Source of the DNA: Castellaniella defragrans
Lineage (GTDB): Bacteria > Pseudomonadota > Gammaproteobacteria > Burkholderiales > Burkholderiaceae_B
DNA: 64,000 nucleotides
Reading direction: 5' to 3'
Assembly: GCF_014203015.1 (NCBI RefSeq)
Contig: NZ_JACHIB010000003.1
Location: 170,680-234,679, forward strand
Of the stretch, positions 38,342-60,492 are shown one piece after another. The stretch's first letter is position 1; the number at the start of each line of letters is the position of its first letter. The position numbers and the translations under genes were made by a program. The notes beneath the pieces are model-generated. The model made no database searches. It was given only the letters and a program-made list of their open reading frames with translations, and was not told where the DNA came from.

Positions 38342-38878
38342 CCCGGCGTCGGCGGCATCGGTGCCGGTGCCGGCTTCAGCATCGGCGGAGGCATCGGCAT
38401 CGGCGCCCGCGCCCGGTCGCCCCGTGTGCAGATCGATGATCTGGCGCAGCGTCTTTTTCAGCTCCTCGGCGCGGGCGAGCCCGAAGGGCGCGAGCACGCG
38501 GCTTTCGTGCTCGCGCGCCAGGCCGATCAGGCGCTCGATCGTGCGCGACCCCTGGGGCGTGATGCGCACCAGGGTGATGCGCCGGTCGCTCGGGTGGGGC
38601 AGCCGTTCGACCTGGCCCTTCGACTCCATGCGGTCCAGCAGGCGGGTGACGGTGGGCTGCTTGGTGACGGTGACCTGGGCCAGCTCGCCGATGCTGATGG
38701 GATCGCCGTCGGCCAGGGAGGCCATCACGCGCCACTCGGACACCGAAAAGCCGTGCTGGCGGACCACCTCGTGGAATTCCCCCGAAATGAGCCGGCTCGC
38801 CAGCGCCAGCAGGGCGGGCAGGTAGCCGTCGACGAAGCGGGCGGGGGCGGGCGGGCTGGATTCCATGGCGTGCGGCAT
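38327..38878 (-). CDS. MarR-family regulator (2), divergent from iorA
   Basis: A 183-residue MarR protein with ISIGELAQVTVTKQPTVTRLLDRMESKGQVERLPHPSDRR as its helix-turn-helix and wing. It is read away from iorA, so it probably controls the ior operon and itself through the 38879-39044 region. The last 25-30 residues are a low-complexity Ala/Asp/Gly tail encoded by GGCATC-like repeats, unlike normal MarR proteins, and extend into the end of the first MarR gene. Confidence 0.88.
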   Translation of the reverse strand: MPHAMESSPPAPARFVDGYLPALLALASRLISGEFHEVVRQHGFSVSEWRVMASLADGDPISIGELAQVTVTKQPTVTRLLDRMESKGQVERLPHPSDRRITLVRITPQGSRTIERLIGLAREHESRVLAPFGLARAEELKKTLRQIIDLHTGRPGAGADADASADAEAGTGTDAADAGSVLG

Positions 38879-39044: not shown

Positions 39045-41324
39045 ATGGCCGAGCGATCATTCGTCGCCGAAGTCGAGAAGCTGCGATTGCCGGCGGGAGA
39101 AGTCTTCCGCGGCGAGGGCATCCTCGCCATCACCAAGGCGCTGCTGGAGTCCGGGGTGGCCTACATCGCGGGCTACCAGGGCGCGCCCATTTCGCACCTG
39201 ATGGACGTCCTCGCGGATGCGCAGGACATCCTTGCCGAATACGGCATCCGCTTCGAGAACAGCGCCAGCGAGGCCACCGCCGCCGCGACGCTGTCGGCCT
39301 CGGTGAACTATCCCCTGCGCGGCGCGGTCACGTTCAAGGCCACCGTCGGCACCAACGTGGCCTCCGACGCGCTGGCGAACCTGTCCTCGGGCGGGGTCAC
39401 GGGCGGCGCGCTCGTGATCGTGGGCGAGGACTATGGCGAGGGTTCCTCGATCATGCAGGAGCGCAGCCACGCCTTCGCCATGAAGTCCCAGATCTGGCTG
39501 CTGGATCCGCGCCCCAATCTCCCCTGCATCGTGCAGGCCGTCAAGGACGGCTTCGAGCTGTCCGAGGCCAGCCATACGCCGGTGATGCTGCAGGTGCGCA
39601 TCCGCTCCTGCCACCTGCACGGCCAGTTCGTCGCGTCGGACAACCGGGCGCCGGCGTTCTCCGTGCGCGACGCGCTGGAAAACCCCGTGCGCGACGTCGG
39701 CCGCATCGTGCTGCCGCCGGCCAGCTTCGTCCACGAAAAAGAAAAGATCGAGGAACGCTGGCCCGCGGCCGTGCGCTTCGTCCAGGAGCGCGGGCTCAAC
39801 GAGTTCTTCTCCGAGAAGGCCGCGGACGTGGGCATCGCCCTGCAGGGCGGGCTCTACAACACCGTGATCCGCGCGCTGCAGCGCCTGGGGCTGGCGGACG
39901 TGTATGGCGAGTCGCAGATCCCGCTGTACGTGATGAACGTCACCTACCCCCTGGTGGACGACGAGTTCGAGCGCTTCTGCCAGGACAAGAAGGCCCTGCT
40001 GGTGCTGGAAGAGGGGCAGCCGAACTTCATCGAGCAGAACGTCGCCTCCATCGTGCTGCAGCGGCGCCTGGACGTGCGCCTGCATGGCAAGGACGTGCTG
40101 CCGATGGCGGGCGAATACACGGCCGCCACGGTGCGCACCGGCCTGCGGGCCTTCCTGGAGCAGTACGGCTGGACCCTGCCGGGCGTGGCCGCCGAGGCCG
40201 CGCCGCCGCGGACGGCACAGGCCGCGCCCGCCGAAACCCCGGCCTCGGCCACGGCCGAAGCCGCCGGATCGGCCGTGGCCGAGGCCGTGATCCCGGCCGC
40301 CGTCCCGGCCGGGGCCGCCGGGGCGCGGGACGAGGACATCCTGCCGCCCTTGAGCGAGACCGTGTATCCGCGCCCCCCCGGGCTGTGCACCGGCTGTCCC
40401 GAGCGGCCCATTTTTTCCGCCATCCGGCTGGTCGAGCGCGAACTGGGGACGCACCACATCAGCGCCGACATCGGCTGCCAGCTGTTCTCCATCCTGCCGC
40501 CTTTCGACCTGGGCAACACCACCATGGGCTACGGCCTGGGCGGGGCGAGCGCCGCCGCCCTGAACGTCGCCCCCGGCAGTGCGCCCGCCAGCCGCCGCGC
40601 CATCTCCGTCATGGGGGATGGCGGGTTCTGGCACAACGGCCTGACCAGCGGCGTGGCCAACGCGGTGTTCAATCAGAGCGACAACCTGACCATCATCGTG
40701 GACAACAACTACACCGCCGCCACCGGCGGGCAGGACATCCTGTCCACGCACAACACCGTCAATCCCACCCGCAGCACCGGCCACGAGATCGAGGACGCCG
40801 TGCGCGGGGTGGGGGTGAAGTGGGTGCGCACGATCCGGCGCACCTACGACACCAAGGCCATGACGGCCGCCCTGCGCGAGGCGCTCACCACCCTCTCGGC
40901 CGGCCCCAAGGTGCTGATCGCCCAGAGCGAATGCATGCTCAACCGCCAGCGGCGCGAAAAGCCGCTGCGGCGCAAGGCCATCGCCGAGGGCAGGCGCGTC
41001 GTGCGCGAGCGCTTCGGCGTCGATCCCGACACCTGCACCGGCGACCATTCCTGCATCCGTCTGTCGGGCTGCCCCTCGCTCACCATCCGGGACAATCCCG
41101 ACCCGCTGCGCCAGGAGCCCATCACCGCCGTGGAGGACACCTGCGTGGGATGCGGCCACTGCGGCGAGGTCGCGCACGCCGCGGTGCTGTGCCCCTCGTT
41201 CTACAAGGCCAGCATCATCGACAACCCCTCCGGCTGGGACAAATGGAAGCACCGCACGCGCGGGGCGATCATCGCCTGGTTCCAGCGCGGCCTGGCCCGC
41301 CGGCGCGACCGGCATGCCTTCTAG
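39045..41324 (+). CDS. iorA: Indolepyruvate ferredoxin oxidoreductase alpha subunit (IorA-like)
   Basis: A 759-residue 2-oxoacid:ferredoxin oxidoreductase subunit that decarboxylates a 2-oxo (aryl) acid to an acyl-CoA. The N-terminal pyrimidine-binding domain starts with GNEAI-type sequence EGILAITKALLESG. The thiamine domain has CTGCPERPIFSAI, ISADIGCQL, MGDGGFWHNG and NNYTAATGGQ. A C-terminal ferredoxin-like domain has CTGDHSC and CVGCGHCGEV. Residues about 383-433 are an Ala/Glu/Pro linker between the two halves, longer than usual. By context the substrate may be indolepyruvate or 2-aminophenylglyoxylate (isatinate). Confidence 0.9.
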   Translation: MAERSFVAEVEKLRLPAGEVFRGEGILAITKALLESGVAYIAGYQGAPISHLMDVLADAQDILAEYGIRFENSASEATAAATLSASVNYPLRGAVTFKATVGTNVASDALANLSSGGVTGGALVIVGEDYGEGSSIMQERSHAFAMKSQIWLLDPRPNLPCIVQAVKDGFELSEASHTPVMLQVRIRSCHLHGQFVASDNRAPAFSVRDALENPVRDVGRIVLPPASFVHEKEKIEERWPAAVRFVQERGLNEFFSEKAADVGIALQGGLYNTVIRALQRLGLADVYGESQIPLYVMNVTYPLVDDEFERFCQDKKALLVLEEGQPNFIEQNVASIVLQRRLDVRLHGKDVLPMAGEYTAATVRTGLRAFLEQYGWTLPGVAAEAAPPRTAQAAPAETPASATAEAAGSAVAEAVIPAAVPAGAAGARDEDILPPLSETVYPRPPGLCTGCPERPIFSAIRLVERELGTHHISADIGCQLFSILPPFDLGNTTMGYGLGGASAAALNVAPGSAPASRRAISVMGDGGFWHNGLTSGVANAVFNQSDNLTIIVDNNYTAATGGQDILSTHNTVNPTRSTGHEIEDAVRGVGVKWVRTIRRTYDTKAMTAALREALTTLSAGPKVLIAQSECMLNRQRREKPLRRKAIAEGRRVVRERFGVDPDTCTGDHSCIRLSGCPSLTIRDNPDPLRQEPITAVEDTCVGCGHCGEVAHAAVLCPSFYKASIIDNPSGWDKWKHRTRGAIIAWFQRGLARRRDRHAF

Positions 41325-41343
41325 CGGCGGGGGACGATCCGAC

Positions 41344-42924
41344 ATGTATTCCGAACCGATCAAGATCGCGGTACTGGCCATGGGCGGCGAGGGCGGCGGC
41401 GTGCTGGCCGACTGGATCGTCGATCTGGGCGAGGAGAACGGCTGGTTCGCCCAGACCACCTCCGTGCCCGGCGTGGCGCAGCGCACCGGCGCCACCATCT
41501 ATTACGTCGAGCTGTTCCCGGGCGCGGACCAGCCCGATGCCCGCGTGCCGGTGCTGGCCCAGTCGCCCATGCCGGGCGACGTGGACATCGTCCTGGCCTC
41601 CGAGCTGATGGAGGCGGGGCGGGCCGTGCAGCGCGGCTTCGTCACGCCGGACCGCACCACCCTGATCGGCTCCACGCACCGCGTCTATGCGATCGCCGAG
41701 AAATCCCACCTGGGAGACGGCCGGGTCGACAGCAACGCGCTCCAGCGGCAGATCCGCCGCGCGGCCCGGCGGCTGATCACCTTCGACATGGCCCGGACGG
41801 CCGAGCGCAACGGCAGCGTGGTCAGCGCCGTGCTGTTCGGCGCGCTCAGCGGCGCCGGAGTGCTGCCCTTCAACCGCGCCCAGTTCGAGGCCACCATCGA
41901 GCGCGGCGGCGTGGGCGTCAAGGCCAGCCTGGCGGCCTTCGCCGACGCTTTCGAGCAGGCCCGGCTGACGCAGAGCGAATCCTCGCGCCCCACTGTGCGC
42001 GCCCGGGAGGGCGGCCGGCCGGCCGCCGATGCCAAGCCCGCCCTGCCGGACCCGGCCGCGGTGGCGCCGCGCCATCCGGAGGTGGCGCGGCTGGTCGAGC
42101 ATGCCCGCGGCTATCCGGCGGAGATCCAGCCCATCGTGATCGAGGGCATCCGCCGCTGCGTGGACTACCAGGACCCGGCCTACGGGCGCCTGTACCTCGA
42201 CCGCCTGGATGCGCAGCGGGCGGCGCCCGGCGGCCAGGATGCCGAGATGATGCGCGAGGTGGCGCGCCACCTCGCCCTGTGGATGACCTACGAGGACACC
42301 ATCCGGGTGGCCGACCTCAAGATCCGCGGCAGCCGCTTCGAGCGCGTGCGCGGCGAGGTGCGCTCCACCGACGGGCAGGTGCTGTCGATCTCCGAATACA
42401 TGCACCCGCGCATCGAGGAAATCTGCGAGACCCTGCCCGCCGGCCTGGGACGCTGGCTGTCCAGGCCGCATGCCGTGCATCGCCTCGTGGCCCGCCTCAC
42501 CCGCGATGGCCGCGTGGTCACCACCAGCTCGCTGGGCGGGTTCTTCCTGCTGTATGCGCTGGCGTGGTGGGGGCGCTGGCGGCGCGTCACCCTGCGCTAC
42601 GCCGTCGAGACCGCGCGCATCGAGGCCTGGCTGGGGCGCCTGCGCGCGGCGGCCGCCATCGATCCCCGCCTGGCGCTGGAGGCGGCCAAATGCCAGACGC
42701 TGGTGCGCGGCTACAGCGACACGCACGAGCGCGGCCTGCGCAATTACGAGATCATCATGACGGTGCTGGACCGCCATGCGAAGGCCCTGGCGCCCGCCAT
42801 CCTGCGCGAACTGCGCAACGCGGCGCTGGCCGACGAGCATGGGCGCGTCCTGCGCGACGCCCTGGCGCGCCGCGGCTTCCCGCTCGACGGGCTGTTCGCC
42901 GGGGCCGAAAGGAGCTGTCCATGA
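41344..42924 (+). CDS. iorB: Indolepyruvate ferredoxin oxidoreductase beta subunit (IorB-like)
   Basis: A 526-residue partner of IorA. Residues 1-200 form the gamma/beta-type domain that binds CoA (AVLAMGGEGGGVLADWIVDLGEENG, VPGVAQRTGATIYYVE). The rest is the DUF6537-like C-terminal domain of aerobic bacterial IorB proteins, ending with HERGLRNYEIIM. ATG 41344 (MYSEPIKI) is chosen over an in-frame start at 41314 that overlaps iorA. The fused C-terminal domain marks the form found in aerobic proteobacteria rather than the small archaeal subunit. Confidence 0.88.
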   Translation: MYSEPIKIAVLAMGGEGGGVLADWIVDLGEENGWFAQTTSVPGVAQRTGATIYYVELFPGADQPDARVPVLAQSPMPGDVDIVLASELMEAGRAVQRGFVTPDRTTLIGSTHRVYAIAEKSHLGDGRVDSNALQRQIRRAARRLITFDMARTAERNGSVVSAVLFGALSGAGVLPFNRAQFEATIERGGVGVKASLAAFADAFEQARLTQSESSRPTVRAREGGRPAADAKPALPDPAAVAPRHPEVARLVEHARGYPAEIQPIVIEGIRRCVDYQDPAYGRLYLDRLDAQRAAPGGQDAEMMREVARHLALWMTYEDTIRVADLKIRGSRFERVRGEVRSTDGQVLSISEYMHPRIEEICETLPAGLGRWLSRPHAVHRLVARLTRDGRVVTTSSLGGFFLLYALAWWGRWRRVTLRYAVETARIEAWLGRLRAAAAIDPRLALEAAKCQTLVRGYSDTHERGLRNYEIIMTVLDRHAKALAPAILRELRNAALADEHGRVLRDALARRGFPLDGLFAGAERSCP

Positions 42925-42952: not shown

Positions 42953-44119
42953 ATGGCGCGCCTGGGGTATGACGACGTCGCCGTGGCCGTGCCGGTCACC
43001 GTGCCTTATCAGCGGTTCTCGAACGAAGGCGCGCACTGGTTCATCGGCCAGGCCGTGCGCGGCCTGGTCGAGCGCAGCGGCGTGGCCAAGGAACACATCG
43101 ACGGCCTGTGCCTGTCCAGCTTCTCGCTGGTGCCCGATACGGCCGTGGGCGTCACCCAGCACCTGGGCCTGTCGCCGCGCTGGCTCGACCACGTGCCCAC
43201 CGGCGGGGCGTCGGGCGTCATGTGCCTGCGGCGCGCCGCCCGGGCGGTCCAGGTGGGCGACGCCGACATCGTGGCCTGCGTGGCGGCCGACACCAATCAC
43301 GTGGATTCGTTTCGCCAGACGCTCGGGGCGTTCAGCGATTTCTCCCGGGACGCCACCTATCCGTACGGCTCGGGCGGGCCCAACTCGGTCTTCGCCATGA
43401 TCACGGCGCACTACATGCGCACGTTCGGCGCCCGGCGCGAGGACTTCGGCCGCATCGCCGTGGCGCAGCGCGAGAACGCGCTGCGCAACCCCAACGCCCT
43501 GTTCAAGAAGCCGCTGACGCTGGACCAGTACATGGCGGCGCGGCCGATCGCCGATCCCCTGCACCTGTTCGATTGCGTCATGCCCTGCGCCGGCGCCGAG
43601 GCCTTCCTGGTGATGAGGCAGCAGCGCGCCCGCGACCTGGGGCTCGACCACGTCCTGGTGCGGGCCGCCATCGAGCGCCACAACGCGTTTTCCGACGACC
43701 CGGTGATGGTGCGCGGCGGCTGGCGCCAGGACCGCGACGAGCTCTATGCGCAGGCGGGCGTCGGGCCGGACGACATCGACCTGCTGCAATCCTACGACGA
43801 CTATCCCGTCATCGTGATGATGCAGTTCGAGGACCTGGGATTCTGCGAAAAGGGCGAAGGCCCGGAGTTCGTGCGGTCCCACACCCTGACGGTGGACGGC
43901 AGCTTTCCCAACAACACCGGCGGCGGCCAGCTGTCGGCCGGCCAGCCGGGCGCGGCGGGGGGATTCATGGGACTCACGGAGACGATCCGCCAGCTGACGG
44001 GCCAGGCCGGCGACCGCGCCGTCCCGGGCGCGCGGCTGGGCCTGGTGGCGGGATTCGGCATGGTGACCTACGACCGCTGCCTGTGCACCGGCGCGGTGAT
44101 TCTCGGGAGCAGCCAATGA
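42953..44119 (+). CDS. Thiolase-fold protein lacking the catalytic Cys (candidate retro-aldolase)
   Basis: The 388-residue protein has the SCP-x/thiolase fold. Where thiolases carry C-x-S-G, it has G-A-S-G (residues 85-88), and the GHP motif near the C-terminus reads GQP (SAGQPGAAGG, about residue 330). It therefore lacks both the acyl-accepting cysteine and the active-site histidine. Thiolase-like proteins of this kind act with DUF35 partners as retro-aldolases in steroid side-chain degradation (Ltp2/ChsH2). The next gene codes for a DUF35 domain and starts within its stop codon. The start has AGGAGGAACC-like sequence ahead. Confidence 0.82.
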   Translation: MARLGYDDVAVAVPVTVPYQRFSNEGAHWFIGQAVRGLVERSGVAKEHIDGLCLSSFSLVPDTAVGVTQHLGLSPRWLDHVPTGGASGVMCLRRAARAVQVGDADIVACVAADTNHVDSFRQTLGAFSDFSRDATYPYGSGGPNSVFAMITAHYMRTFGARREDFGRIAVAQRENALRNPNALFKKPLTLDQYMAARPIADPLHLFDCVMPCAGAEAFLVMRQQRARDLGLDHVLVRAAIERHNAFSDDPVMVRGGWRQDRDELYAQAGVGPDDIDLLQSYDDYPVIVMMQFEDLGFCEKGEGPEFVRSHTLTVDGSFPNNTGGGQLSAGQPGAAGGFMGLTETIRQLTGQAGDRAVPGARLGLVAGFGMVTYDRCLCTGAVILGSSQ

Positions 44120-45372
44120 CCATGCCCCTGATGCGGCCTCCGCGCAAGAACCCGGTGCTGCGCACCCGGCAGATGAACCTGCCTCCCTGGGCGCGCGGCC
44201 GCGTGGCCCTGGGCATGACGGCGGCCGCCGCCGAGGGCCGCTTCGAGCTGCAGGCCTGCGATGCCTGCGGGGCGCTGCAGTATCCGCCGCGCTCGGCCTG
44301 CCACCGGTGCCTCTCCAGCCGGCTCGTCTGGCGCGAGCAGGGCGGCGAGGGCGAGCTGCTCACGGAGACGACGCTGCATCACAGCAACGACCTGTTCTTC
44401 CGCGAGCGCCTGCCCTGGCGCCTGGGGTTCGTGCGCCTGGATGCCGGTCCCACCCTCATGGTGCACGTGCACGGCGACGTCGGCCCCGCGCCGCAGCGGG
44501 TGCGCGTGGGCGCCCGGCTCGATCGCGCCGGGCAGGCCGTCTTGATTGGATTCCCGATGGAAGGAAGTGCGAACATGGCAGACGATCCGATGCTGCGCGA
44601 AATGGGCTGCGACCCCAAGTTCCGCAAGGTGCTGGTCACCGACGGCAAGACCCCGGTGGGGCAGGCCCTCGTGCGGGCGCTGGTGGCGGCCGGGGCCGAC
44701 CTGGTCTGGGTGGGCCATGCCGAGCCCTGGAAGCGGCTGGGCGGGCTGGAGGACATCGCGGCCCTGCCGCAGGTGTCGCTGGTGCCGCTGGACCTCAGCG
44801 ACAACCGCAGCGTCGTCGAGCAGGCGGGCTCCATCGGCGGCAAGGTGGACATCGTGGTCAACAACGCCGAGGTGCACCGCACGCATGGCATCGCCTCGCG
44901 GCGCGGCACCGACGTCGCGCGGGCCGAGATGGACATCAATTATTTCGGCCTGCTGCGGCTCGCCCAGGCGTTCGGCCCCGCGCTCAAGGGGCGCTCGGCC
45001 GACGGCACGGCCAGCGCCACGGCATGGGTCAACCTCCTGTCGATCTACGCCCTGTCGAATTTCCCGCCGCAGGGCACCTACAGCGCCAGCAAGGCGGCGG
45101 CGCATTCGCTGGCGCAGTGCCTGCGGGCGGAGATGGCGCTGGCCGGCATCCGCGTCATGAACGTCTATCCGGGGCCGGTGGACGACGAATGGAACCAGAA
45201 CGTGCCGCCCCCCAAGCTGAGCCCCGAGGCCCTGGCCGCCGCGGTCGTCAAGGCCCTGAAGGAAGGGGTCGAGGACGTGTATCCCGGCGACGTGGCGCAG
45301 GAGTGGCTGCAGCGCTGGCGCGACAATCCCAAGGTCCTGGAACGTGAACTCTCGATGAACCGTGGCGCCTGA
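44116..45372 (+). CDS. DUF35 OB-fold/Zn-ribbon domain fused to an SDR
   Basis: A 418-residue two-domain protein. Residues 1-150 form a DUF35 acyl-CoA-binding module with a zinc ribbon (CDAC at about 48, CHRC at about 62) and an OB fold. Residues 154-418 form a short-chain dehydrogenase with NNAEVHR, LLSIYAL and YSASK, but a loose nucleotide loop (VTDGKTPVGQ). The reading frame is open across the joint. An internal ATG at 44575 has AAGGAAG about 8 bp upstream, so the SDR may also be made alone (265 residues). The ATGA overlap with the thiolase-like gene suggests a complex of the two. Confidence 0.82.
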   Translation: MTMPLMRPPRKNPVLRTRQMNLPPWARGRVALGMTAAAAEGRFELQACDACGALQYPPRSACHRCLSSRLVWREQGGEGELLTETTLHHSNDLFFRERLPWRLGFVRLDAGPTLMVHVHGDVGPAPQRVRVGARLDRAGQAVLIGFPMEGSANMADDPMLREMGCDPKFRKVLVTDGKTPVGQALVRALVAAGADLVWVGHAEPWKRLGGLEDIAALPQVSLVPLDLSDNRSVVEQAGSIGGKVDIVVNNAEVHRTHGIASRRGTDVARAEMDINYFGLLRLAQAFGPALKGRSADGTASATAWVNLLSIYALSNFPPQGTYSASKAAAHSLAQCLRAEMALAGIRVMNVYPGPVDDEWNQNVPPPKLSPEALAAAVVKALKEGVEDVYPGDVAQEWLQRWRDNPKVLERELSMNRGA

Positions 45373-45391: not shown

Positions 45392-46201
45392 ATGACATCC
45401 CACACCGATCCGACGACGGGCGCCGAGGCCCTGCTGGGGTTCGCCCGGGCGCTGCTGGGCGGCGGCATCCGCGTCGTCGACCTCACCCAGACCCTGACGC
45501 CCGAATTCCCGCAGATCGCGCTGCCGCCCGAATTCGGCCAGTGCTGGCCTTTCCGCATCGAGGAAGTCTCGAAATACGACGAGCGCGGGCCGGGCTGGTA
45601 CTGGAACAACTTTTCCTGCGGCGAGCATACCGGCACGCACTTCGACGCCCCCATCCACTGGATCTCCGGCCGCGACCTGCCCAACAACTCGGTGGACACC
45701 ATCCCGGTGCGCCATTTCGTGGCGCCCGCCTGCGTCATCGACTGCTCGCCGCAGGTGAAGGACGACCCCGACTACCTGCTGACCATCCAGGACATCGAGA
45801 CGTGGGAGGCCGCGCACGGCCGCATCCCGGCGGGCTCGTGGGTGCTGATGCGCACCGACTGGTCCAAGCGCACCGACCCGAAGGAATACCAGAATTACGA
45901 CGAGACCGGCCAGCACACGCCCGGACCCAGCGCCGAGGCCGTGCGCTTCCTGATCGAGCAGCGCGACGTGCTGGGGTTCGGCTCCGAGGCGATCGGCACC
46001 GATGCCGGCCAGGGCTACCATCTGCGCCCGCCCTATCCCTGCCACTACCTCATGCATGGCGCCGGCCGCTACGGCCTGCAGTGCCTGTGCAACCTGGACC
46101 TGCTGCCCGCCAGCGGCGCGGTGCTGATCTGCCCGCCGCTGAAGATCGAGAAGGGCAGCGGCAGCCCCCTGCGGGTGCTGGCCCTGGTGGCGGACGCCTG
46201 A
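45392..46201 (+). CDS. Cyclase-family metal hydrolase (isatin hydrolase / kynurenine formamidase type)
   Basis: A 269-residue cyclase-fold hydrolase. The metal-binding signature HTGTHFDAPIHW is present, and FGSEAIGTDAG near residue 200 carries further active-site residues. The family opens amide rings or bonds; isatin hydrolase and kynurenine formamidase are the best-known members. In this operon, beside IorAB and a possible retro-aldolase, isatin hydrolysis to isatinate is the most attractive role. ATG 45392 with GGAG nine bp ahead is chosen over 45362, which lies within the previous gene. Confidence 0.85.
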   Translation: MTSHTDPTTGAEALLGFARALLGGGIRVVDLTQTLTPEFPQIALPPEFGQCWPFRIEEVSKYDERGPGWYWNNFSCGEHTGTHFDAPIHWISGRDLPNNSVDTIPVRHFVAPACVIDCSPQVKDDPDYLLTIQDIETWEAAHGRIPAGSWVLMRTDWSKRTDPKEYQNYDETGQHTPGPSAEAVRFLIEQRDVLGFGSEAIGTDAGQGYHLRPPYPCHYLMHGAGRYGLQCLCNLDLLPASGAVLICPPLKIEKGSGSPLRVLALVADA

Positions 46202-46301: not shown

Positions 46302-47471
46302 ATGATGAAGTCTCTTCGTTCCCTGCGCGCCCTGGCCGCCACCGTCTCGGCCACGGCGCTGGTCGCCGCGGTTCCCTCGGCCCGCGCGGCCGATTACAAG
46401 GTCGGATTCATCACCTCCCTGGTGGGTCCGGTCTCCTCCCTGGGCATCCCCTACCAGAAGGGCATCAAGGCGGGCCAGGCCTACCAGTCCGAGATCGACG
46501 GCAAGAAGGTCCAGCTCATCCAGCTCGACGATGCCTCCGACCCCAGCACGGCGGCGCGCAACGCCCGCAAGCTGATCGAGGAGGACAAGGTCGATGCCAT
46601 CATCGGCACGGCCGGCTCGCCCGGCGCTCTGGCCATCGCCGCGGTGGCGCGCGAGTCCAGGACGCCGCTGATCTCGATCGCCCACGCCGACCTGTCGGGA
46701 GCCGAGGCCGAGTGGGTCGTGACGGTGCCGCAGCCCGCCACCCTGATGATCAGCGCCGTGGTCGATCACATGAAGCAGGCCGGCGTCCACACCCTGGGCT
46801 ACATCGGCTTCTCGGACGCCTGGGGCGACCAGGTCTACGAGGCGCTGGAGAAGACCACGCCGCAGGCGGGCATCAAGGTCGTGACCAACGAGCGCTACGC
46901 GCGCGGCGACGCCTCGGTGGCCGGCCAGGTGCTGAAGATCGTCTCGCAGCGCCCCGACGCCGTGATCACGGGGAACTCGGGCACGCCCGGCGCGCTGCCC
47001 TACCTGGCGCTGGCCGACCGCGGCTACAAGGGCAAGCTCTACGGCACCCACGCCCTGATCAATCCGGCCTTCATCAACGTCGCGCGCAGTTCCGTCGAGG
47101 GCCTGCTGGCGCCCACCGGCCCGGTCATCGTGGCCGAGCAGCTGCCCGAGGACAATCCCATCCGCAAGGTGGCGATGGCCTATCGCGACGCCTACCAGAA
47201 GGCCAACGGCGCGCCGGCCGCCGACGCCTTTTCCGCCTATTCCTTCGACGCCTGGCTGATCTTCCTGGACGCGGCCAAGCGCGCCTCGGCCACCGCCGAG
47301 CCGGGCACGCCGGAATTCCGCGTGGCGCTGCACGACGCGATCAACAGCACCAAGGAGCTGGTGGGCACCCACGCGGTCTACAACTTCCGGCCGGACACGA
47401 CCTACGGCACGGACGAGCGTTCCCGTGTGGTGGTCAGGCTTGAAAAGGGCCAATGGAAGCTGGTGCCCTGA
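46302..47471 (+). CDS. ABC transporter substrate-binding protein (branched-chain/aromatic type), copy 1
   Basis: A 389-residue periplasmic binding protein of the Leu/Ile/Val family. The signal peptide runs through PSARAAD, followed by YKVGFITSLVGPVSSLGIPYQKG and LIQLDDASDPSTAARNARKLIEEDKV. It is about 60% identical by eye to the next gene. Family members with the LIV-type permeases often carry aromatic acids. The neighbouring livHMGF genes and the indole genes around suggest an indolic or aromatic ligand. Confidence 0.9.
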   Translation: MMKSLRSLRALAATVSATALVAAVPSARAADYKVGFITSLVGPVSSLGIPYQKGIKAGQAYQSEIDGKKVQLIQLDDASDPSTAARNARKLIEEDKVDAIIGTAGSPGALAIAAVARESRTPLISIAHADLSGAEAEWVVTVPQPATLMISAVVDHMKQAGVHTLGYIGFSDAWGDQVYEALEKTTPQAGIKVVTNERYARGDASVAGQVLKIVSQRPDAVITGNSGTPGALPYLALADRGYKGKLYGTHALINPAFINVARSSVEGLLAPTGPVIVAEQLPEDNPIRKVAMAYRDAYQKANGAPAADAFSAYSFDAWLIFLDAAKRASATAEPGTPEFRVALHDAINSTKELVGTHAVYNFRPDTTYGTDERSRVVVRLEKGQWKLVP

Positions 47472-47532
47472 GCGAGGCCGGTCCCCGAGGCGGCGGCCCG
47501 GCCGCCGCCATTCCCGGTTCCTGGAGAGAGCG

Positions 47533-51608: not shown

Positions 51609-52351
51609 GCGCGACGACAGGGACGCCGATGCTGGAAGTGGGGGACCTGCGGGTCGCGTACGGGCGCGTCGAGGCGGTGCGCGGGGTTTCGATCGCCCTG
51701 CAGCCGGGCCAGATCGTCTCGGTCATCGGGCCCAACGGCGCGGGCAAGACGACGCTGCTGTCGGCGGTGATGGGCCTGCTGCCCTCGCGCGGCACGCTGC
51801 GCTTCGAGGGCGAGGACCTGGCCGGCCTGGACGTCGAGTCGCGCGTGGAGCGCGGCCTGTGCCTCGTGCCCGAGACGCGCGAGCTGTTCGGCGAGCTCTC
51901 GGTGCTGGACAATCTGCGCCTGGGCGCGTATTCGCGCCGGCTGCGGCCGCAGGCCCTGCGCGGCCGCCTGGATTCGGTGTACGCGCGCTTTCCGCGGCTG
52001 GCCGAGCGGCGCTCGCAGCGGGCGGACACCTTGTCCGGCGGCGAGCGCCAGATGCTGGCGGTCGGGCGCGCGCTGATGTCGGCGCCGCGCCTGCTGATGC
52101 TCGACGAGCCCAGCCTGGGGCTCGCGCCGCTCATCGTGCGGGAGATCCTGTCCATCGTGCGCGCCTTGCGCGAGGACGGCGTGTCGATCCTGCTGGTCGA
52201 GCAGAACGCCCGCGCCGCGCTGGAGAGCTCCGATTTCGGCTACGTGCTGGAAACCGGCGAGATCGCCCTGTCGGGCGATTCCGCGGCGCTCGCCGAGGAT
52301 GCGCGCGTGCGGGCCACTTATCTTGGAGGAGGCACCGATGACGATGCATGA
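51605..52351 (+). CDS. livF: ABC transporter ATPase (LivF type)
   Basis: A 248-residue ATPase with Walker [10 protein letters not shown], signature [15 protein letters not shown], Walker [15 protein letters not shown] and H-loop region [11 protein letters not shown]. It forms the second nucleotide-binding subunit beside the LivM-LivG fusion. The C-terminal YLGGG ending is typical. Its stop lies inside the start of the next ligase gene. Confidence 0.94.
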
Positions 52352-53930
52352 AGGACTGCCGCCCGCACAGCGGACCGTGCCGCGGATGCTGCTGCGCCAG
52401 GCGGCGCTGTTCGCCGGGCGGCCGGCCCTGAAGCTGGGCGCGGCCCGCTGGACGCACGCGGATGCGGCGCCGATCGCGGCGCGGCGGGCAGGCGCGCTGC
52501 GCGCGGCCGGCGTGGGCCGGGGCGACCGCGTGGCGATCATGAGCGCCAACCGCGAGGAATTCCTGGAGGCCTTCCTCGGCTGCGGCTGGTCGGGCGCGGT
52601 CGCCGTGCCGGTCAACACCGCGTCCCGCGGGCCGCAGATCGAATATTTTCTGGCCAACAGCCAGGCCCGGCTGCTGGTGATCGAGGCGCAGTACCTGGAC
52701 CGGCTGGCGACGGCCGACCTGGGCAAGACTTCCCTGCGGCAGATCTGGGTGCTGGACGGCGCCGGCGCGGCGGGGGCGATCGGCGAGGTGCCGGCGGCGC
52801 CGTGGCCGCCGGGCGGGCCGGCGCTGGAGGCCGAGGCGGTGGGGCCGGGCGACACCCTGGCGATCCTCTACACTTCCGGCACCACGGGACCGTCCAAGGG
52901 GGTGCTCTGCCCGCATGCGCAGTACTACTGGTGGGGCGTCAACACCCTGCGCGTCCTGGGCGTGACGCAGGACGACGTCCTGTGCACCACGCTGCCGCTG
53001 TTCCACATCAATGCCCTCAACACCTACGCGCAGGCGGCGCTGGCCGGCTGCGAGGTGGTGTTCGAGCCGAAATTCTCGGCTTCGGGCTTCTGGACTTCGA
53101 TGGCCGCCTGCGGCGCGACCGTCGTATACTTGCTCGGCGCCATGGTGCCGATCCTGCTGGCGCAGCCGTCGGCGCCGGCGGAGCGGGCGCATCGCGTGCG
53201 CATCGGGCTGGGGCCGGGCGTGCCCGCCGAAGCGGGCGAGACGTTCCGCGCGCGCACCGGCGTGCAGCTGCTCGAAGGCTATGGTTCGACGGAAACGAAT
53301 TTCGTGATCGGCACCGCGCCGGATTCGCCGCGGCGCGGGGTGATGGGGTGGGTCCTGCCGGGCTTCGAGGCGCGCGTGGCCGACGAGGACGACGTGGAAG
53401 TGCCGGTCGGCCAGGCCGGCGAACTGCTGGTGCGCGCGCACGAGCCCTATGCCTTCGCCTCGGGATACTTCAACATGCCCGAGAAGACGGTCGAGGCCTG
53501 GCGCAACCTCTGGTTCCATACCGGCGACCGGGTGCTGCGCGAAACCGACGGAGCGTTCCGTTTCGTCGACCGGATCAAGGACGCAATCCGCCGAAGAGGG
53601 GAAAATATCTCGTCTTTCGAGGTCGAACAAGTGCTGCTGAGTCATCCGGCCGTGGCGGCCGCCGCCGTCTATCCCGTCGGCTCCGAACTGGCCGAGGACG
53701 AGGTCATGGCCGCGCTGGTCGCGCGTCCCGGCCAGGTCCTGGACCTGCCGGAACTGGCGGTCTGGTGCGAGTCCCGGCTGCCGCATTTCGCGGTGCCGCG
53801 CTACATCGACGTGCTGGAAGACCTGCCGCGCACCGAGAACGGCAAGATCCAGAAGTACAAGTTGCGCGAACGCGGCGTCACCGCGGCCACCTGGGAACGT
53901 CCCCAGGCGCCGCGCAGGCAGCGGGCTTGA
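52338..53930 (+). CDS. Acyl-CoA ligase (CaiC-like, AMP-forming)
   Basis: A 530-residue ANL ligase. Motifs are [18 protein letters not shown], the [11 protein letters not shown] segment, [31 protein letters not shown] and the terminal lysine in [12 protein letters not shown]. It resembles carnitine/crotonobetaine and related ligases rather than the benzoate type. Co-transcription with the importer and position before the Iac-type genes suggest that it activates the imported acid or an oxidised product such as dioxindole-3-acetate. ATG 52338 with GGAGGAGG upstream overlaps livF by 14 bp. Confidence 0.87.
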
Positions 53931-54889: not shown

Positions 54890-56050
54890 ATGAGCGACAT
54901 TCTTTCCCTGCCCGCGGGCGTGCGCGCGCACGGCGCCGAGCTGGACCAGCTCCTGCGCGACGTCCATGAGCGCCGGCGGGAATTCGAGGCCCTGGGCTAC
55001 GTGCCGCAGGACATCATCGACCGGTTCAAGGCCATGGGCGTCTACCGTTCGCTGGTTGCGCGGCGCTTCGGCGGAGACGAATGCTCGCCCGCCGAGTTCT
55101 GCCGCCTGATCGAGCGGATTTCCCAGGCGGACGGCTCGACGGGCTGGGTCGCCAGCTTCGCCATCGGCCCGATCTACCTGTCGGCCCTGCCGGTCCCCAC
55201 GCTGGAGCGGCTGTACGCCGAGGGCGGCGTGGACCAGGTCTTCGCCGGCGGGATCTTCCCGCCGCAGCCGGTCCAGGCCGTCGAGGGCGGGTACAAGGTC
55301 TCCGGGCGCTGGCATTTCTCCAGCGGCAGCATGGGGGCGGACGTGGTCGGCGTGGGCATCATCCCGCCCGCCGAAGGCGGGGCCGCGCTGCCGCGCATGG
55401 CCGTCATGCGCCGCGACCAGATCCGCATCGAGCAGAACTGGGACGTCATGGGCCTGAAGGCCACCGGCAGCAACGATCTCGTGGCCGACGGCGTCGTGGT
55501 GGCGCAGGACTGGACTTTCGTGCGGGGCGGCGCCTCGTCCCTGGACACGCCGCTGTACCGCTATCCGGCGCTGGCCTTCGCGGCGCAGGTCCTGGCCGTG
55601 GTCGCGCTGGGCATCGGCCGCGCGGCGATCGACGAAGTCCTGCAGATGGCCGGCGGCCGCAAGTCCGTCACCGGGGCGCCCAACCTGGGCGAGCGCGTCT
55701 ACGTGCAGCTGGAGGTCGCCCGGATCGAGGCCGAGCTGCGCGCGGCGCGCAGCTGGTTCTACGAGGCCATCGACGACATCTGGCGGGTGCTGGTGGCCGG
55801 CGGCAGGCCCGAGGACCACCTGGTCAGCATGCTGCGCCTGTCGGCCACGCATGCCGCGCGGGTCGGGGCCGACGTGGCCCGCCGCGCCCAGATGCTCAGC
55901 GGCATGACCGGCGTCTACGAGGCCAGCCCGCTGGCCCAGCAGGTGCGCGACGCCCAGATGGTGACCCAGCACGCCTTCATGGGCGACATCACCTACCAGA
56001 ACGCGGGTGCCATGCGCTTCGGCCTGGCGCCCCTGCCGGGCTATCTTTGA
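54890..56050 (+). CDS. iacA: IacA-like acyl-CoA-dehydrogenase-fold monooxygenase
   Basis: A 386-residue flavin-dependent oxygenase of the acyl-CoA dehydrogenase fold (HpaB/DszC side). It has QADGSTGWVASF, SGRWHFSSGSMGADVVGVG, WDVMGLKATGSNDLV and a C-terminal helix bundle with AQMLSGMTGVYE, and lacks the catalytic glutamate pattern of true dehydrogenases. IacA starts IAA breakdown by ring oxygenation using reduced flavin. Assignment rests on fold plus the following iacB-, iacE- and iacG-like genes in the same operon. Other indole or phenol monooxygenases remain possible. Confidence 0.8.
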   Translation: MSDILSLPAGVRAHGAELDQLLRDVHERRREFEALGYVPQDIIDRFKAMGVYRSLVARRFGGDECSPAEFCRLIERISQADGSTGWVASFAIGPIYLSALPVPTLERLYAEGGVDQVFAGGIFPPQPVQAVEGGYKVSGRWHFSSGSMGADVVGVGIIPPAEGGAALPRMAVMRRDQIRIEQNWDVMGLKATGSNDLVADGVVVAQDWTFVRGGASSLDTPLYRYPALAFAAQVLAVVALGIGRAAIDEVLQMAGGRKSVTGAPNLGERVYVQLEVARIEAELRAARSWFYEAIDDIWRVLVAGGRPEDHLVSMLRLSATHAARVGADVARRAQMLSGMTGVYEASPLAQQVRDAQMVTQHAFMGDITYQNAGAMRFGLAPLPGYL

Positions 56051-56086
56051 GCGTGGCCCGTCCCGATTCCATACCAGGAGGATGAC

Positions 56087-56503: not shown

Positions 56504-57244
56504 ATGGATCGGATCGCACTCGTGACCGGCGCCGGCCAGGGCCTGGGGCTCGCCATCGCCGGGCGCCTGCACTCGGCGGGATTCCAGGTGGCCGTCACGG
56601 ACCACCGGCTGGATATGGCGCAGCGGGCGGCGGCGCAGATCGACGCCCGCGGCGAAGGCGTGCTGCCCCTGCGCCTGGACGTGACGCGCAAGGAAGACTT
56701 CGAGGCGGCGCTGGCCGCCGTCCTGCAGCGCTGGGGCGGTCTGCAGGTCCTGGTCAACAACGCCGCCATGACCAAGGCCACGCCCGTGATGGAGATCGGC
56801 CCCGAGGAATTCGACGCGGTGCTGGCCACCAACCTGCGCGGCACGCTGTTCGGCTGCCAGGTCATGGGCGCCCACATGGCCGAGGCCGGCTACGGGCGGC
56901 TGATCAACATGGGCTCGCTGGCCGGCCAGAACGGCGGCACGGCCACCGGCGCGCACTATGCCTGCTCGAAAGGCGCGATCATCACGCTCACCAAGATCTT
57001 CGCGCGCGAGCTGGGCCCGCGCGGCGTCACGGCCAACGCCATCTCGCCCGGCCCGATGGACCTGCCCTCGGTGCATGCGCTCGTCCCGCCGGAGAAGCTG
57101 GAGCAGATCGTGCAGGGCATCCCCGTGCGGCGCCTGGGCGACCCCCAGTTCGTCGCCGACCTGGTGGTGCGGCTCGCCTCGGAGGACGCCGGCTTCGTCA
57201 ACGGCGCCAACTGGGACGTCAATGGCGGACTTTTCATGCGCTAG
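56504..57244 (+). CDS. iacE: SDR oxidoreductase (IacE-like)
   Basis: A 246-residue classical short-chain dehydrogenase with VTGAGQGLGLAIAGRL, NNAAMTKATP, the serine in NMGSLAGQNG and YACSK. In classical iac clusters IacE is an SDR acting on the oxidised IAA intermediate leading to dioxindole-3-acetate. The same gene order (A, B, E, G) here supports that role, though the SDR family alone does not define a substrate. Confidence 0.8.
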   Translation: MDRIALVTGAGQGLGLAIAGRLHSAGFQVAVTDHRLDMAQRAAAQIDARGEGVLPLRLDVTRKEDFEAALAAVLQRWGGLQVLVNNAAMTKATPVMEIGPEEFDAVLATNLRGTLFGCQVMGAHMAEAGYGRLINMGSLAGQNGGTATGAHYACSKGAIITLTKIFARELGPRGVTANAISPGPMDLPSVHALVPPEKLEQIVQGIPVRRLGDPQFVADLVVRLASEDAGFVNGANWDVNGGLFMR

Positions 57245-57307: not shown

Positions 57308-57913
57308 ATGAACGTGAACGAATTTCGGATTGCGGCACCCACGCCAGAGCCGATCGCCTGGCGCTGGACGTGCGAGATGGACGATCAGGAGAGCACCATG
57401 GCAGATGCAGACGCATTCCGCAACGCGATGGCCCTGCTGGCCGGCGCGGTCAACATCATCACCACCGACGGCCCCAGCGGCCTGGCCGGCTTCACCGCGA
57501 CCGCGGTGTGCAGCGTCACGGACCAGCCGCCCACGCTGCTGGTCTGCATGAACCGCTCGTCCTTCGCGCACCGGTTCTTCGAGGGCAACAACGTGCTGTG
57601 CGTCAACGTGCTGGGCGCGGCGAACAAGGAAGCGCCGGCGCTGTTCGCGGACCGCAACGTCCAGATGGAGGACCGCTTCGCCCGCGTCCAGTGGAGCCGG
57701 CTCGCCACCGGCAGCCCGCTGATCGACGGCGCCGTGGTCAGCTTCGACTGCCGCATCAAGAACACCAGCGTGGTCGGCTCGCACAGCATCTTCCTCTGCG
57801 AGGTGCAGGACATCCGGCGCGGCGAGGCGCAGGGCGGGCTGGTGTATTTCAACCGCGACTACCATCCGGTGGGCTTCGGCGAGCCGCCGGTCCCGCCGGC
57901 CAGGAAGAATTGA
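57308..57913 (+). CDS. iacG: Flavin reductase (IacG-like)
   Basis: A flavin reductase-like FMN-binding protein with the split-barrel core: NAMALLAGAVNIITTDG, GFTATAVCSVTDQPPTLLVCMNR, and HSIFLCEV. It would supply reduced flavin to the IacA-like oxygenase. Two starts are plausible: ATG 57308 (GAAGGAG upstream), giving 201 residues with a 30-residue hydrophilic leader, and ATG 57398 (AGGAGAG upstream), giving the standard 171-residue core. Both have good ribosome-binding sites. Confidence 0.86.
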   Translation: MNVNEFRIAAPTPEPIAWRWTCEMDDQESTMADADAFRNAMALLAGAVNIITTDGPSGLAGFTATAVCSVTDQPPTLLVCMNRSSFAHRFFEGNNVLCVNVLGAANKEAPALFADRNVQMEDRFARVQWSRLATGSPLIDGAVVSFDCRIKNTSVVGSHSIFLCEVQDIRRGEAQGGLVYFNRDYHPVGFGEPPVPPARKN

Positions 57914-58083: not shown

Positions 58084-60492
58084 ATGAAGATCGTTTGCAT
58101 CGGTGGCGGGCCGGCTGGTCTGTATCTGGCCCTGCTCATGAAGAAGCTGGACGCGCGGCACGAGATCGTCGTGGTCGAGCGCAACCGGCCCTACGACACG
58201 TTCGGCTGGGGGGTGGTGTTCTCCGACGCCACCATGGACAACATGCGGCAGTGGGACCGCGAGACGGCCGACGAGATCCAGGAGGCCTTCAACCACTGGG
58301 ACGACATCGAACTGCGCTTCAAGGGCCGCACCATCCGCTCGGGCGGCCACGGCTTCGTGGGCATCGGCCGCAAGAAGCTGCTGAACATCCTGCAGGCGCG
58401 CTGCGAGCAACTGGGCGTGGAGCTGGTCTTCGAGACCGAGGTGGACTCCGACGAGGACTATCCGGACGCGGACCTGATCATCGCCAGCGACGGCATCTTC
58501 TCCAAGATCCGGGGCAAGTACGCCGACACCTTCCAGCCGGACATCGTCACGCGGCCGAACCGCTACATCTGGCTGGGCACGAACAAGCTCTACGACGCCT
58601 TCACCTTCGACTTCCGCAAGACCGAGCACGGCTGGTTCCAGGCGCACATCTACAAGTTCGACGAGAAGACCACCACCTTCATCGTCGAGTGCCCCGAGCA
58701 CGTCTGGCTGGCGCACGGCCTGGACAAGGCCGACCAGCAGCAGTCGATCGCCTTCTGCGAAAAACTGTTCGACGAGGGCAACCTGGAAGGCGCGAAGCTG
58801 ATGACCAACGCGCGCCACCTGCGCGGGGCCGCGTGGCTGAACTTCCAGCGCGTGGTGTGCGGACAGTGGTGGCTGAAGAACGCGCACGGCAGCCACGTCG
58901 TGCTGATGGGCGACGCGGTGCACACGGCGCACTTCGCCATCGGCTCGGGCACCAAGCTGGCGATCGAGGACGCCATCGAGCTCACGCGCCAGTTCCAGCT
59001 GCTGGGCGACGACGCGGCGCACATTCCCGAGGTGCTGGCCGCCTACCAGGAAGCGCGCCGCATCGAGACCCTGCGCCTGCAGAACGCGGCCTGGAACGCG
59101 ATGGAATGGTTCGAGGTCTGCGGCGAGCGCTATTGCGACCAGTTCGAGCCCGAGCAGCTCATGTATTCCATGCTGACGCGCAGCCAGCGCATCAGCCATG
59201 AAAACCTGCGTCTGCGCGACAAGGAATGGCTGGAGGGCTACGAGCGCTGGTTCGCCGAGCGCGCCCGCGCGCCCGCGCCGGCCGGCCGCGCCACGCCGCC
59301 CATGTTCACCCCCTGGACGGTGCGCGGCCTGACGCTCAAGAACCGCGTCGTGGTCTCGCCCATGGCCCAGTACTCGGCGGTGGACGGCACGGTGGGCGAC
59401 TATCACCTGGTGCACCTGGGCGCGCGCGCGCAGGGCGGCGCCGGCCTGGTGTTCGCCGAGATGACCTGCGTGAGCGCCGAAGGCCGCATCACCCCCGGCT
59501 GCCCCGGGCTGTACAAGCCCGAGCACACGGCGGGGTTCAAGCGCATCGCCGACTGGATCCACGAACACACCGACGCCAGGTTCGGCATCCAGATCGGCCA
59601 CGCCGGCGCCAAGGCGTCCACGCGCCGGGCCTGGGACGGCATCGACCAGCCGCTGCCGGAGGGCAACTGGCCCCTGATCTCGGCCTCGCCGCAGCAGTAC
59701 CTGGAAGGCGTGAGCCAGGTCTCGCGGGCCATGACGCGGGAGGACATGGACGCGGTCAAGGCGCAGTTCGTGGCCTCGGCGCGCGCCGCCGACGAGGCGG
59801 GCGCCGACTGGCTGGAGCTGCACTGCGCCCACGGCTACCTGCTGTCGTCCTTCATCTCGCCGCTGACCAATCAGCGCACGGACGAGTACGGCGGTCCGCT
59901 CGCCAACCGGCTGCGCTATCCGCTGGAGGTGTTCGAGGCGGTGCGCGCGGTCTGGCCGCAGCACAAGCCGATGTCGGTGCGCATCTCCGCGCACGACTGG
60001 GTCGAGGGCGGCATCACGCCCGCCGACGCGGTGGAAGTCGCCCGCGCCTTCAAGGCGGCCGGCGCGGACATGATCGACGTGTCCTCGGGGCAGGTGAGCA
60101 AGCGGGAAAAGCCGGTCTACGGGCGCATGTTCCAGACGCCCTTCGCCGACCGGATCCGCCAGGAGGCGGGCATTCCCACGATCGCGGTGGGCGCGATCAG
60201 CGAGGCCGACCACGTCAACAGCATCCTGGCCGCCGGCCGCGCGGACCTGTGCGCGGTGGCGCGCCCGCACCTGGCCAATCCGGCCTGGACCCTGACCGAG
60301 GCCGCCAAGATCGGCTACATCGGCGTCCAATGGCCCCGGCAGTACCGCACGGCCAAGCAGCAGATGGAAAGCAATTTCGCGCGGGAAAAGGCCGCGCAGG
60401 CGGCCGCCGTGGCGGCGAGCGCCATCCACCAGCCGGCCGCTCCGGCGGGGGGCGCCCTGCACGAGCCGGCCGTCGCGGCGGGGAGCGTCTGA
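58084..60492 (+). CDS. 2-Aminobenzoyl-CoA monooxygenase/reductase (salicylyl-CoA 5-hydroxylase family)
   Basis: An 802-residue two-domain flavoprotein. Residues 1-395 form an FAD monooxygenase with [26 protein letters not shown] and a [14 protein letters not shown] motif. Residues 405-765 form an old-yellow-enzyme domain with [31 protein letters not shown] and [16 protein letters not shown]. This fusion is the known enzyme that hydroxylates and then reduces 2-aminobenzoyl-CoA to a non-aromatic 2-amino-5-oxocyclohexenyl-CoA, with salicylyl-CoA 5-hydroxylase as a close relative. The following beta-oxidation genes and RidA favour the aminobenzoyl substrate. An Ala-rich C-terminal tail follows. 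Confidence 0.9.

Follow-up and report, generated by a model that had tools for sequence, protein, structure and literature searches.

The benzoylsuccinyl-coenzyme A (CoA) thiolase BbsAB (7pxp) has a thiolase fold, a DUF35-type partner and an aromatic CoA substrate, and its subunit BbsB, which keeps the nucleophile Cys, the motif HDAF and the His of GHP, is a true thiolase. Ltp2 of Thermomonospora curvata (TcLtp2; 6ok1), an aldolase of the same fold that lacks the nucleophile Cys and is paired with the DUF35 protein ChsH2, cleaves a tertiary beta-hydroxyacyl-CoA to a cyclic ketone. The hydroxyl of the Ltp2 substrate is named as C17-OH in PMC12329534. The bile acid side-chain aldolase Sal of Comamonas testosteroni (CtSal; 9myr) has as partner Shy, in which DUF35 is fused to a hydratase domain; Tyr302 and Cys304 of the CtSal motif YDCY are essential, the Tyr being proposed as the base and the Cys as the acid from which the acetyl-CoA enolate takes its proton (PMC12329534). 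Here we analyse a gene for a protein of this fold in a stretch of 64,000 nucleotides from Castellaniella defragrans (the window), which is part of contig 3 of a 3.94 Mb genome. Its sequence and surroundings identify the gene as iadG, a member of the iad locus already known for degradation of the auxin indole-3-acetic acid (IAA). We propose, with a probability of about 0.79, that IadG is a Sal-related retro-aldolase, that the product of the next gene, IadH, provides its obligatory DUF35 partner together with a degenerate short-chain dehydrogenase/reductase (SDR) domain, and that the two would convert dioxindole-3-acetyl-CoA to isatin and acetyl-CoA.

The genes themselves have been described before, as has the fact that the pathway depends on them, and the kind of enzyme is not new either. 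The published roles, assigned by annotation, are formation of a CoA ester for IadF, ketothiolase for IadG, alcohol dehydrogenase for IadH and amidase for IadI (PMC12633357). The main text of that paper writes ketothiolase and contains no word beginning with thiolase or retro-aldol, and no retro-aldol or thiolase-like reading of the iad genes was found among the papers listed in searches of the open-access PMC subset. As far as these searches go, what is new is the proposal that IadG, so far called a ketothiolase, is a Tyr-Asp retro-aldolase, and that IadH, so far called an alcohol dehydrogenase, is a DUF35 partner whose SDR domain is degenerate.

IadG (388 aa; 42953..44119, forward strand) is encoded by an open reading frame matching the Pfam family Thiolase_C_1 (E = 1e-36), and is predicted from alignments, tree and fold to be a DUF35-dependent retro-aldolase. 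Its catalytic positions were compared in an alignment of 47 rows (6 IadG sequences, 5 solved chains and 36 other frames), with replacements read against BbsB and 7yvy, which both keep the nucleophile Cys and the GHP His. Conservation was followed in 92 IadG rows, made up of the window and 91 loci and containing some near-identical strains; two loci that are the window itself (L001, L003) and a 27% identical paralog (L002) were omitted. At the nucleophile, the His and Cys of HDCF, and the His of GHP, in that order, 7yvy and 7pxp read C/H/A/H, CtSal G/Y/C/Q, TcLtp2 G/Y/H/Y and IadG G/Y/D/Q. All four thiolase catalytic positions are thus changed in IadG. The nucleophile Cys is replaced by Gly85 (codon 43205..43207, aligned with 7pxp, 7yvy, 9myr and 6ok1), the HDCF His by Tyr281, the HDCF Cys by Asp283 and the GHP His by Gln331 (codon 43943..43945; Gln352 in CtSal, Tyr344 in TcLtp2). 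Tyr281-Asp282-Asp283 (codons 43793..43801; these and the other codons on the forward strand) begin a YDDY motif, which is HDCF in SCP2 thiolases, YDCY in CtSal and YDHF in TcLtp2 (motif roles from PMC12329534).

Gly85, Gln331, YDDY and the GQ that stands for GH are invariant in all 92 rows and recur in the 6/6 IadG orthologs (L098-L103) that belong to different classes within the phylum; YDDY is also found in each of the 19 loci with a stand-alone DUF35 gene. Tyr281, Asp283, Gln326 and Gln331 form an invariant polar set. IadG therefore lacks the nucleophile Cys and GHP His that characterize the thiolases (EC 2.3.1.16 and 2.3.1.9), having Gly85 and Gln331 instead, and in every one of the 92 rows it has the two features of the aldolase kind, a Gly at the nucleophile place and a Tyr as the first residue of YDxx. 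A first-pass annotation of the window had read the nucleophile motif as replaced at Gly85 and GHP as GQP, and had concluded that Claisen chemistry by way of an acyl-cysteine is not possible. Both replacements are borne out, and the residues for such chemistry are gone, although that annotation had missed the further changes at Tyr281 and Asp283. It had also named a nucleophile Cys at a shifted position as a result that would speak against it. Among the invariant Cys residues of the 92 rows (C109, C208, C212, C298 and C378; C91 is not conserved) none lies at the nucleophile position, and C298 is common to CtSal, TcLtp2, 4u4e and BbsB, so that a shifted nucleophile can be ruled out.

The closest solved relative by sequence is CtSal (9myr, E = 2e-51), followed by 4u4e and then TcLtp2 (6ok1), and a profile search gave the same order. 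The AlphaFold model of IadG (mean predicted local distance difference test score 76, predicted template modelling score 0.83) ranked these structures likewise, with 9myr at Z = 42.3 (root-mean-square deviation 3.2, 373 residues aligned), 4u4e at Z = 40.4 and 6ok1 at Z = 39.9. Relationships were further examined with an IQ-TREE tree of 45 rows, rooted on the HDxx rows, from which L096 and L136, copies of included rows, had been dropped. The IadG sequences form a clade with a Shimodaira-Hasegawa approximate likelihood ratio test (SH-aLRT) value of 81 and an ultrafast bootstrap (UFBoot) value of 95. With three YDDF sequences they make a group supported at 100/100 (SH-aLRT/UFBoot), which joins the Sal clade, made up of the six YDCY rows (93.3/93), and then the Ltp2 clade (90.9/92). 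The FastTree version gave 0.96 for the YDD group and 0.98 for the Sal-plus-YDD group.

In common with CtSal, IadG has the thiolase fold and the Gly at the nucleophile place; its Tyr281 is equivalent to Tyr302 of CtSal, and its Gln326 and Gln331 to Gln347 and Gln352. Both have a DUF35 partner fused to another enzyme domain, and for IadG we likewise propose chemistry on a beta-hydroxyacyl-CoA. The two differ at Cys304 of CtSal, which is Asp283 in IadG, so that the motif is YDCY in Sal and YDDY in all 92 IadG rows. They differ also in the zinc finger of DUF35, which is C4 in IadH and C3H1 in Shy (PMC12329534), in the domain fused to it, a degenerate SDR in IadH and a hydratase in Shy, and in the proposed substrate, for IadG an aromatic lactam that is small and carries a tertiary alcohol group. 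TcLtp2 shares with IadG the Cys-less fold, the Tyr of YDxx and the DUF35 partner, but has YDHF and a catalytic Tyr344 where IadG has YDDY and Gln331, and it is the Sal clade that IadG joins first. The Ltp2-type assignment of the first-pass annotation is supported as to the kind of protein; the difference in the catalytic acid from both Ltp2 and Sal had gone unnoticed.

The iadH gene (44116..45372, forward strand, 418 aa) begins with an ATG that overlaps the stop codon of iadG, and its single open frame carries the domains zf-ChsH2, OB_ChsH2_C and adh_short. The DUF35 part (44221..44523, forward strand) consists of the zinc finger C48-x2-C51...C62-x2-C65, with its four Cys invariant in 91 IadH rows, and an oligonucleotide/oligosaccharide-binding (OB) fold. 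The SDR-fold part (44626..45372, forward strand), identified by domain match and alignments, has the degenerate cofactor motif TDGKTPVG, with YSASK kept in the window copy. A DUF35 domain beside the thiolase-fold protein had been correctly recognized in the first pass, but as a separate gene ending at 44575, which is ruled out since the frame from 44116 runs without a stop until 45372 and 44575 lies inside the 418-aa fusion. The IadH orthologs from the loci aligned for IadG are also full-length fusions, of 413-428 aa.

The classical SDR cofactor motif TGxxxGxG is not found in the 91 IadH rows: its first Gly is Asp in 91/91, the middle Gly is kept in 2 and the last Gly in all. The Tyr of YxxxK has become Phe in 71 rows and Trp in 8, and the 12 rows that retain it include the window; the catalytic Ser is kept in 91/91 and the Lys in 90/91. 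IadH sequences from other classes (five rows from four genomes, L099 and L114 being the same gene) carry Asn or Asp in place of the first Gly, with YSASQ in three genomes and HSVAH in one; the alignment behind this includes L099, L100 and L102 and omits L006, L012 and the IadH of L098 and L103. By contrast, IadJ of the Variovorax locus L024 reads VTGGSAGIG and YSATK. The mean pairwise identity is 0.80 in the SDR half of IadH and 0.77 in the DUF35 half; the SDR half is thus as well conserved as its partner and is not decaying, and it probably has another task. The degenerate motifs weaken the case for IadH as a working dehydrogenase, a role that the window copy, with its YSASK, might still have. 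A fold search with the IadH model, in which residues 1-41 are of low confidence, aligned the SDR half alone in nearly all rows and so says little about the DUF35 half.

The constancy of the DUF35 neighbour was examined in a family sample of 200 genomes, with E-value cut-offs of 1e-100 for IadG and 1e-40 for the full DUF35-SDR protein. IadG is present in 68 genomes and the full DUF35-SDR protein in 49. DUF35 adjoins iadG in 68/68, fused to the SDR in 49 and standing alone in 19. In all 49 the fused gene is the immediate downstream neighbour of iadG, in the same orientation. The stand-alone DUF35 frame is also directly behind iadG in 19/19, ends 4 to 29 residues past the domain and has a C4 zinc motif in each case; an IadJ match follows downstream on the same strand in 18 of these 19 loci, the exception being L161. 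Across 112 fused loci, which include some places fetched more than once and genomes too closely related to count as independent, iadI directly follows iadH in 109, with no iadI seen in two and iadI located elsewhere in one. Directly after a stand-alone DUF35 gene iadI was found in 0/19; it lies 6.0-6.8 kb upstream in 10 and was not seen in the stretch covered in 9.

The link to the published genes is provided by locus L024 of Variovorax sp. Root411, whose IadG is 81% identical to that of the window. Its genes encode, one after another, a reductase, the alpha and beta Rieske proteins, a ligase, IadG, the DUF35-SDR fusion, an isatin hydrolase homologue, an SDR and a binding protein (the Rieske and reductase names being assigned from sequence and order match), an arrangement that agrees with the iadC-K2 region published for V. 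paradoxus CL014 (PMC12633357; gene list PMC10374108). The IadH of these papers is most likely the DUF35-SDR fusion, and IadG and IadH of CL014 the same genes as those of the window, a match made through the order in L024 and the 81% identity of IadG and not through the CL014 sequence itself. The papers differ from our reading in the function given, a ketothiolase with an alcohol dehydrogenase. At least 80 loci in genome contigs, many from Variovorax, are matched by IadG of the window, and the closest named record among the matches listed is a Castellaniella caeni protein with 94% identity.

Genetics in Variovorax has shown that iadF, iadG, iadH and iadI are needed after dioxindole-3-acetate. 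Deletion of any of the four lowers anthranilate and leads to accumulation of C10H9NO4, assigned as dioxindole-3-acetic acid (PMC12633357, preprint). Later labelled species keep four ring deuteriums (PMC12633357), which fits the loss of a CH2-COOH unit. Cultures of this Variovorax strain were found to contain isatin, along with other compounds (PMC9613470), and isatin and isatin hydrolase have been tied to the IAA route (PMC6117287). Dioxindole-3-acetic acid (by nuclear magnetic resonance), isatinic acid and isatin (by mass) were found during IAA degradation by Pseudomonas sp. LY1 (PMC8383072), a comparison of metabolites in which the LY1 gene cluster has no part. In the window, the gene after iadH is iadI (45392..46201, forward strand), which encodes an isatin hydrolase homologue (5nna, E = 1.3e-111; 5nnb, 1.4e-111; 5nmp, 5.5e-110); the match to 5nna spans residues 16-267 of 269, while the kynurenine formamidase 4cob scores only 1.2e-4.

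From these data we infer the following course for the reaction, the complex and the parts played in it by single residues. IAA would be oxidized to dioxindole-3-acetate, and a ligase would then join this acid to CoA. The resulting ester, a tertiary beta-hydroxyacyl-CoA, would be the substrate of IadG in complex with the DUF35 domain of IadH; its cleavage would be of retro-aldol type and involve no covalent acyl-Cys. In this reaction Tyr281 would accept the proton of the 3-hydroxyl, the C3-CH2 bond would break to give isatin and the acetyl-CoA enolate, and Asp283, in the place taken elsewhere by the Cys of HDCF or YDCY, would return a proton to the enolate, a role as catalytic acid suggested by analogy. 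Gln326 and Gln331 would support the site, as proposed for their Sal equivalents. The isatin formed would pass to IadI and be hydrolysed to isatinate. The SDR half of IadH, degenerate as it is yet conserved, would not be the catalyst here and perhaps serves as a dock. The first-pass annotation had suggested cleavage of dioxindole-3-acetyl-CoA to isatin and acetyl-CoA, and this suggestion appears well supported by the kinship with Sal, the retained Tyr and Gln residues, the DUF35 gene in 68/68 genomes, the isatin hydrolase homologue next in line and the knock-outs. The hydratase and DUF35 genes that flank the YDDF sisters of IadG, described below, also speak for it. Such a reaction explains why a CoA ester is needed, why an isatin hydrolase follows and why iadH is needed despite its degenerate dehydrogenase half; the smallest working gene set for the step would be iadG and a DUF35 gene. 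If this is true, the thiolase-fold retro-aldolases extend from steroids to an aromatic plant hormone, with a new acid residue predicted.

Several observations weigh against this proposal. SCP2 and other thiolases, BbsB among them, score at Z of about 39 against the IadG model, within about 3 Z units of 9myr, because of which the fold alone is not decisive, and the model is of low confidence at residues 116-142, 199-211, 252-255, 323-332 and 372-375. Replacement of Cys304 in CtSal by Ala, Ser or His abolishes activity (PMC12329534), so that it is not self-evident that an Asp could stand in for this Cys. A compound C8H7NO2, which has the formula of dioxindole with two hydrogens more than isatin, accumulates in the iadI mutant, and the authors speak of a reductive removal of the acetyl unit (PMC12633357). 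The 1995 Bradyrhizobium scheme has dioxindole between dioxindole-3-acetate and isatin (PMC8383072), and dioxindole too was detected in Variovorax (PMC9613470). Since a retro-aldol cleavage yields isatin directly, it requires that dioxindole arise by a later side reduction. The window copy of IadH retains both Tyr and Lys of YxxxK, and may have residual SDR activity. The nearest solved SDR, 5u4s, has a Leu at the place of this Tyr yet is titled as a complex with nicotinamide adenine dinucleotide phosphate (NADP), and the loss of the Tyr may thus be older than the fusion of DUF35 and SDR; the Gly that IadH has exchanged for Asp is still present in 5u4s.

A retro-aldolase of the same kind could act on a neighbouring substrate, for example on the 2,3-dihydroxyindoline acid as its CoA ester, ahead of the dehydrogenase step, or on a ring-opened beta-hydroxyacyl-CoA. 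The residue pattern and the DUF35 partner leave the substrate unfixed, but the accumulation of dioxindole-3-acetic acid in the iadF, iadG, iadH and iadI mutants (PMC12633357) and the isatin hydrolase homologue in the next gene point to the substrate proposed above, and we regard a shift to such a neighbour as unlikely.

The published scheme, in which IadG as ketothiolase and IadH as alcohol dehydrogenase remove the acetyl unit reductively to give dioxindole (C8H7NO2) for processing by IadI and later enzymes, draws on the annotation and on the compound accumulating in the iadI mutant (PMC12633357); the position of dioxindole before isatin in the older Bradyrhizobium scheme (PMC8383072) and the YSASK of the window IadH are also in its favour. 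It would, however, require a thiolase without nucleophile Cys and GHP His, both of which are absent from all 92 IadG rows, and a dehydrogenase with Asp for the first Gly in 91/91 rows and YxxxK without its Tyr in 79/91, the other classes having Asn or Asp there, with YSASQ or HSVAH. Moreover, DUF35 lacks a fused SDR half in 19 of the 68 genomes, and IadI is a homologue of isatin hydrolase. This scheme thus seems to us quite improbable, and slightly more so than a neighbouring substrate.

In an older second route, 2-formamidobenzoylacetyl-CoA would be split, in the manner of a beta-ketoacyl-CoA, into acetyl-CoA and a formylanthraniloyl ester, and IadI would be a formamidase. It was postulated for B. 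japonicum (PMC8383072), with a 1961 report named in PMC11630574; the free acid of 2-formamidobenzoylacetyl-CoA shares its formula with dioxindole-3-acetate, and IadI has been annotated as a kynurenine formamidase (PMC12633357). This route requires Claisen chemistry, the residues for which are absent from IadG, the E values of IadI are about 1e-111 with isatin hydrolases but 1.2e-4 with the kynurenine formamidase 4cob, and N-formylanthranilate was excluded for C8H7NO3 (PMC12633357), which makes it very unlikely. That IadG is a non-catalytic scaffold of thiolase fold, as the loss of all canonical thiolase residues might suggest, is barely credible given the new invariant polar set Y281, D283, Q326 and Q331 in their place, the activity as aldolases of relatives with the same Tyr (PMC12329534) and the need for iadG in normal anthranilate formation (PMC12633357).

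Returning to the proposed retro-aldolase, we can frame a broader and more tentative version, which we think will rather fail than hold in full. IadG might represent a third catalytic class, Tyr-Asp as against Tyr-Cys in Sal and Tyr-Tyr in Ltp2, that reaches beyond auxin to the YDDF sisters and to a YDDY protein beside a CoA-transferase, and in which the pseudo-SDR of IadH docks the isatin hydrolase and hands on reactive isatin. Docking of the isatin hydrolase by the SDR half would explain why iadI follows the fused iadH (109/112) and not DUF35 alone (0/19). The three YDDF sisters (L104, L105 and L111, from two genomes) have an enoyl-CoA hydratase gene directly before and a DUF35 gene directly after in 3/3 loci; the triads of hydratase, aldolase-like protein with YDDF and GQ, and DUF35 lie at L119 5872-8263, L120 6137-8570 and L121 6159-8551. 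A hydratase followed by a DUF35-adjoined YDDF gene suggests hydration followed by aldol cleavage, as in the logic of Shy and Sal, and the YDDF proteins are probably retro-aldolases for other beta-hydroxyacyl-CoA esters. To be set against this, SDR genes are found further off in two of the three stretches, in which no search for a beta-hydroxyacyl-CoA dehydrogenase was made.

A YDDY relative with 48% identity is encoded in L161 (822-4618), between genes for a class III CoA-transferase and a DUF35 protein. This locus adjoins a gene for an extracellular solute-binding protein, and no iad gene was found within the 9 kb read; it is possibly a short pathway for another beta-hydroxy acid.

The genes around iadG in the window differ in part from those of Variovorax. 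The order in L024 is F-G-H-I-J; the window keeps G-H-I, while its F and J are not orthologous, the IadF and IadJ queries matching the window weakly (32% and 34%). Variovorax IadC, IadD and IadE queries gave no match in the window at E = 1e-5, and the one Ring_hydroxyl_A match in the genome is on another contig. The iadG-iadH-iadI core is common to loci with the Rieske proteins IadDE (Variovorax) and to loci without these but with a flavin monooxygenase (the window and L015). That one core goes with oxygenases of different kinds is consistent with dioxindole-3-acetate as an intermediate shared by both. In the window, a flavin enzyme would start IAA breakdown. The probable first oxygenase is a flavin-dependent monooxygenase of acyl-CoA dehydrogenase fold (54890..56050), with a putative IacA-like role; family matches further indicate an SDR (56504..57244), probably the dehydrogenase giving dioxindole-3-acetate, and a flavin reductase (57308..57913), the probable partner of the monooxygenase. 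These and the remaining genes given with double-dotted coordinates are on the forward strand. The window, with these three genes at 54890-57913 and without the Rieske IadCDE or IadJ of other iad loci, has the look of a hybrid auxin locus. The probable activator of dioxindole-3-acetate, with a putative IadF role, is an ATP-dependent acyl-CoA ligase (52341..53930; NF004808 over its cut-off); in some relatives (e.g. L017 and L030) a ligase of this type lies directly upstream of iadG.

Upstream of iadG are iadA (39045..41324), similar to the indolepyruvate ferredoxin oxidoreductase alpha subunit (TIGR03336, E = 5e-85, under its cut-off), and iadB (41314..42924), of the indolepyruvate oxidoreductase beta family (NF006179 over its cut-off). 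The two resemble iorA and iorB, and such genes have been used as exclusive markers of iad-like loci (PMC9613470). Isatinate is a 2-oxoacid, and IadAB, as a relative of the 2-oxoacid:ferredoxin oxidoreductases, could therefore act on it, perhaps turning it into 2-aminobenzoyl-CoA. A probable downstream step is represented by a gene of the bifunctional salicylyl-CoA 5-hydroxylase/oxidoreductase family (58084..60492; NF006101 over its cut-off), whose product we take to be of the 2-aminobenzoyl-CoA monooxygenase/reductase type.

The iad-like loci of other classes (L113-L117) have no Rieske match, and small frames near their iadG resemble, by eye, proteins of the OsmC and Asp/Glu racemase families. 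In the window, iadA is preceded (36080-38878) by a gene of the benzoate-CoA ligase family, just under its cut-off, and two MarR regulators, one on each strand. Behind iadI (46302-48735) stand two similar solute-binding proteins in tandem, the first matching Peripla_BP_6 and the second recognized by eye, followed by ATP-binding cassette (ABC) transporter genes.

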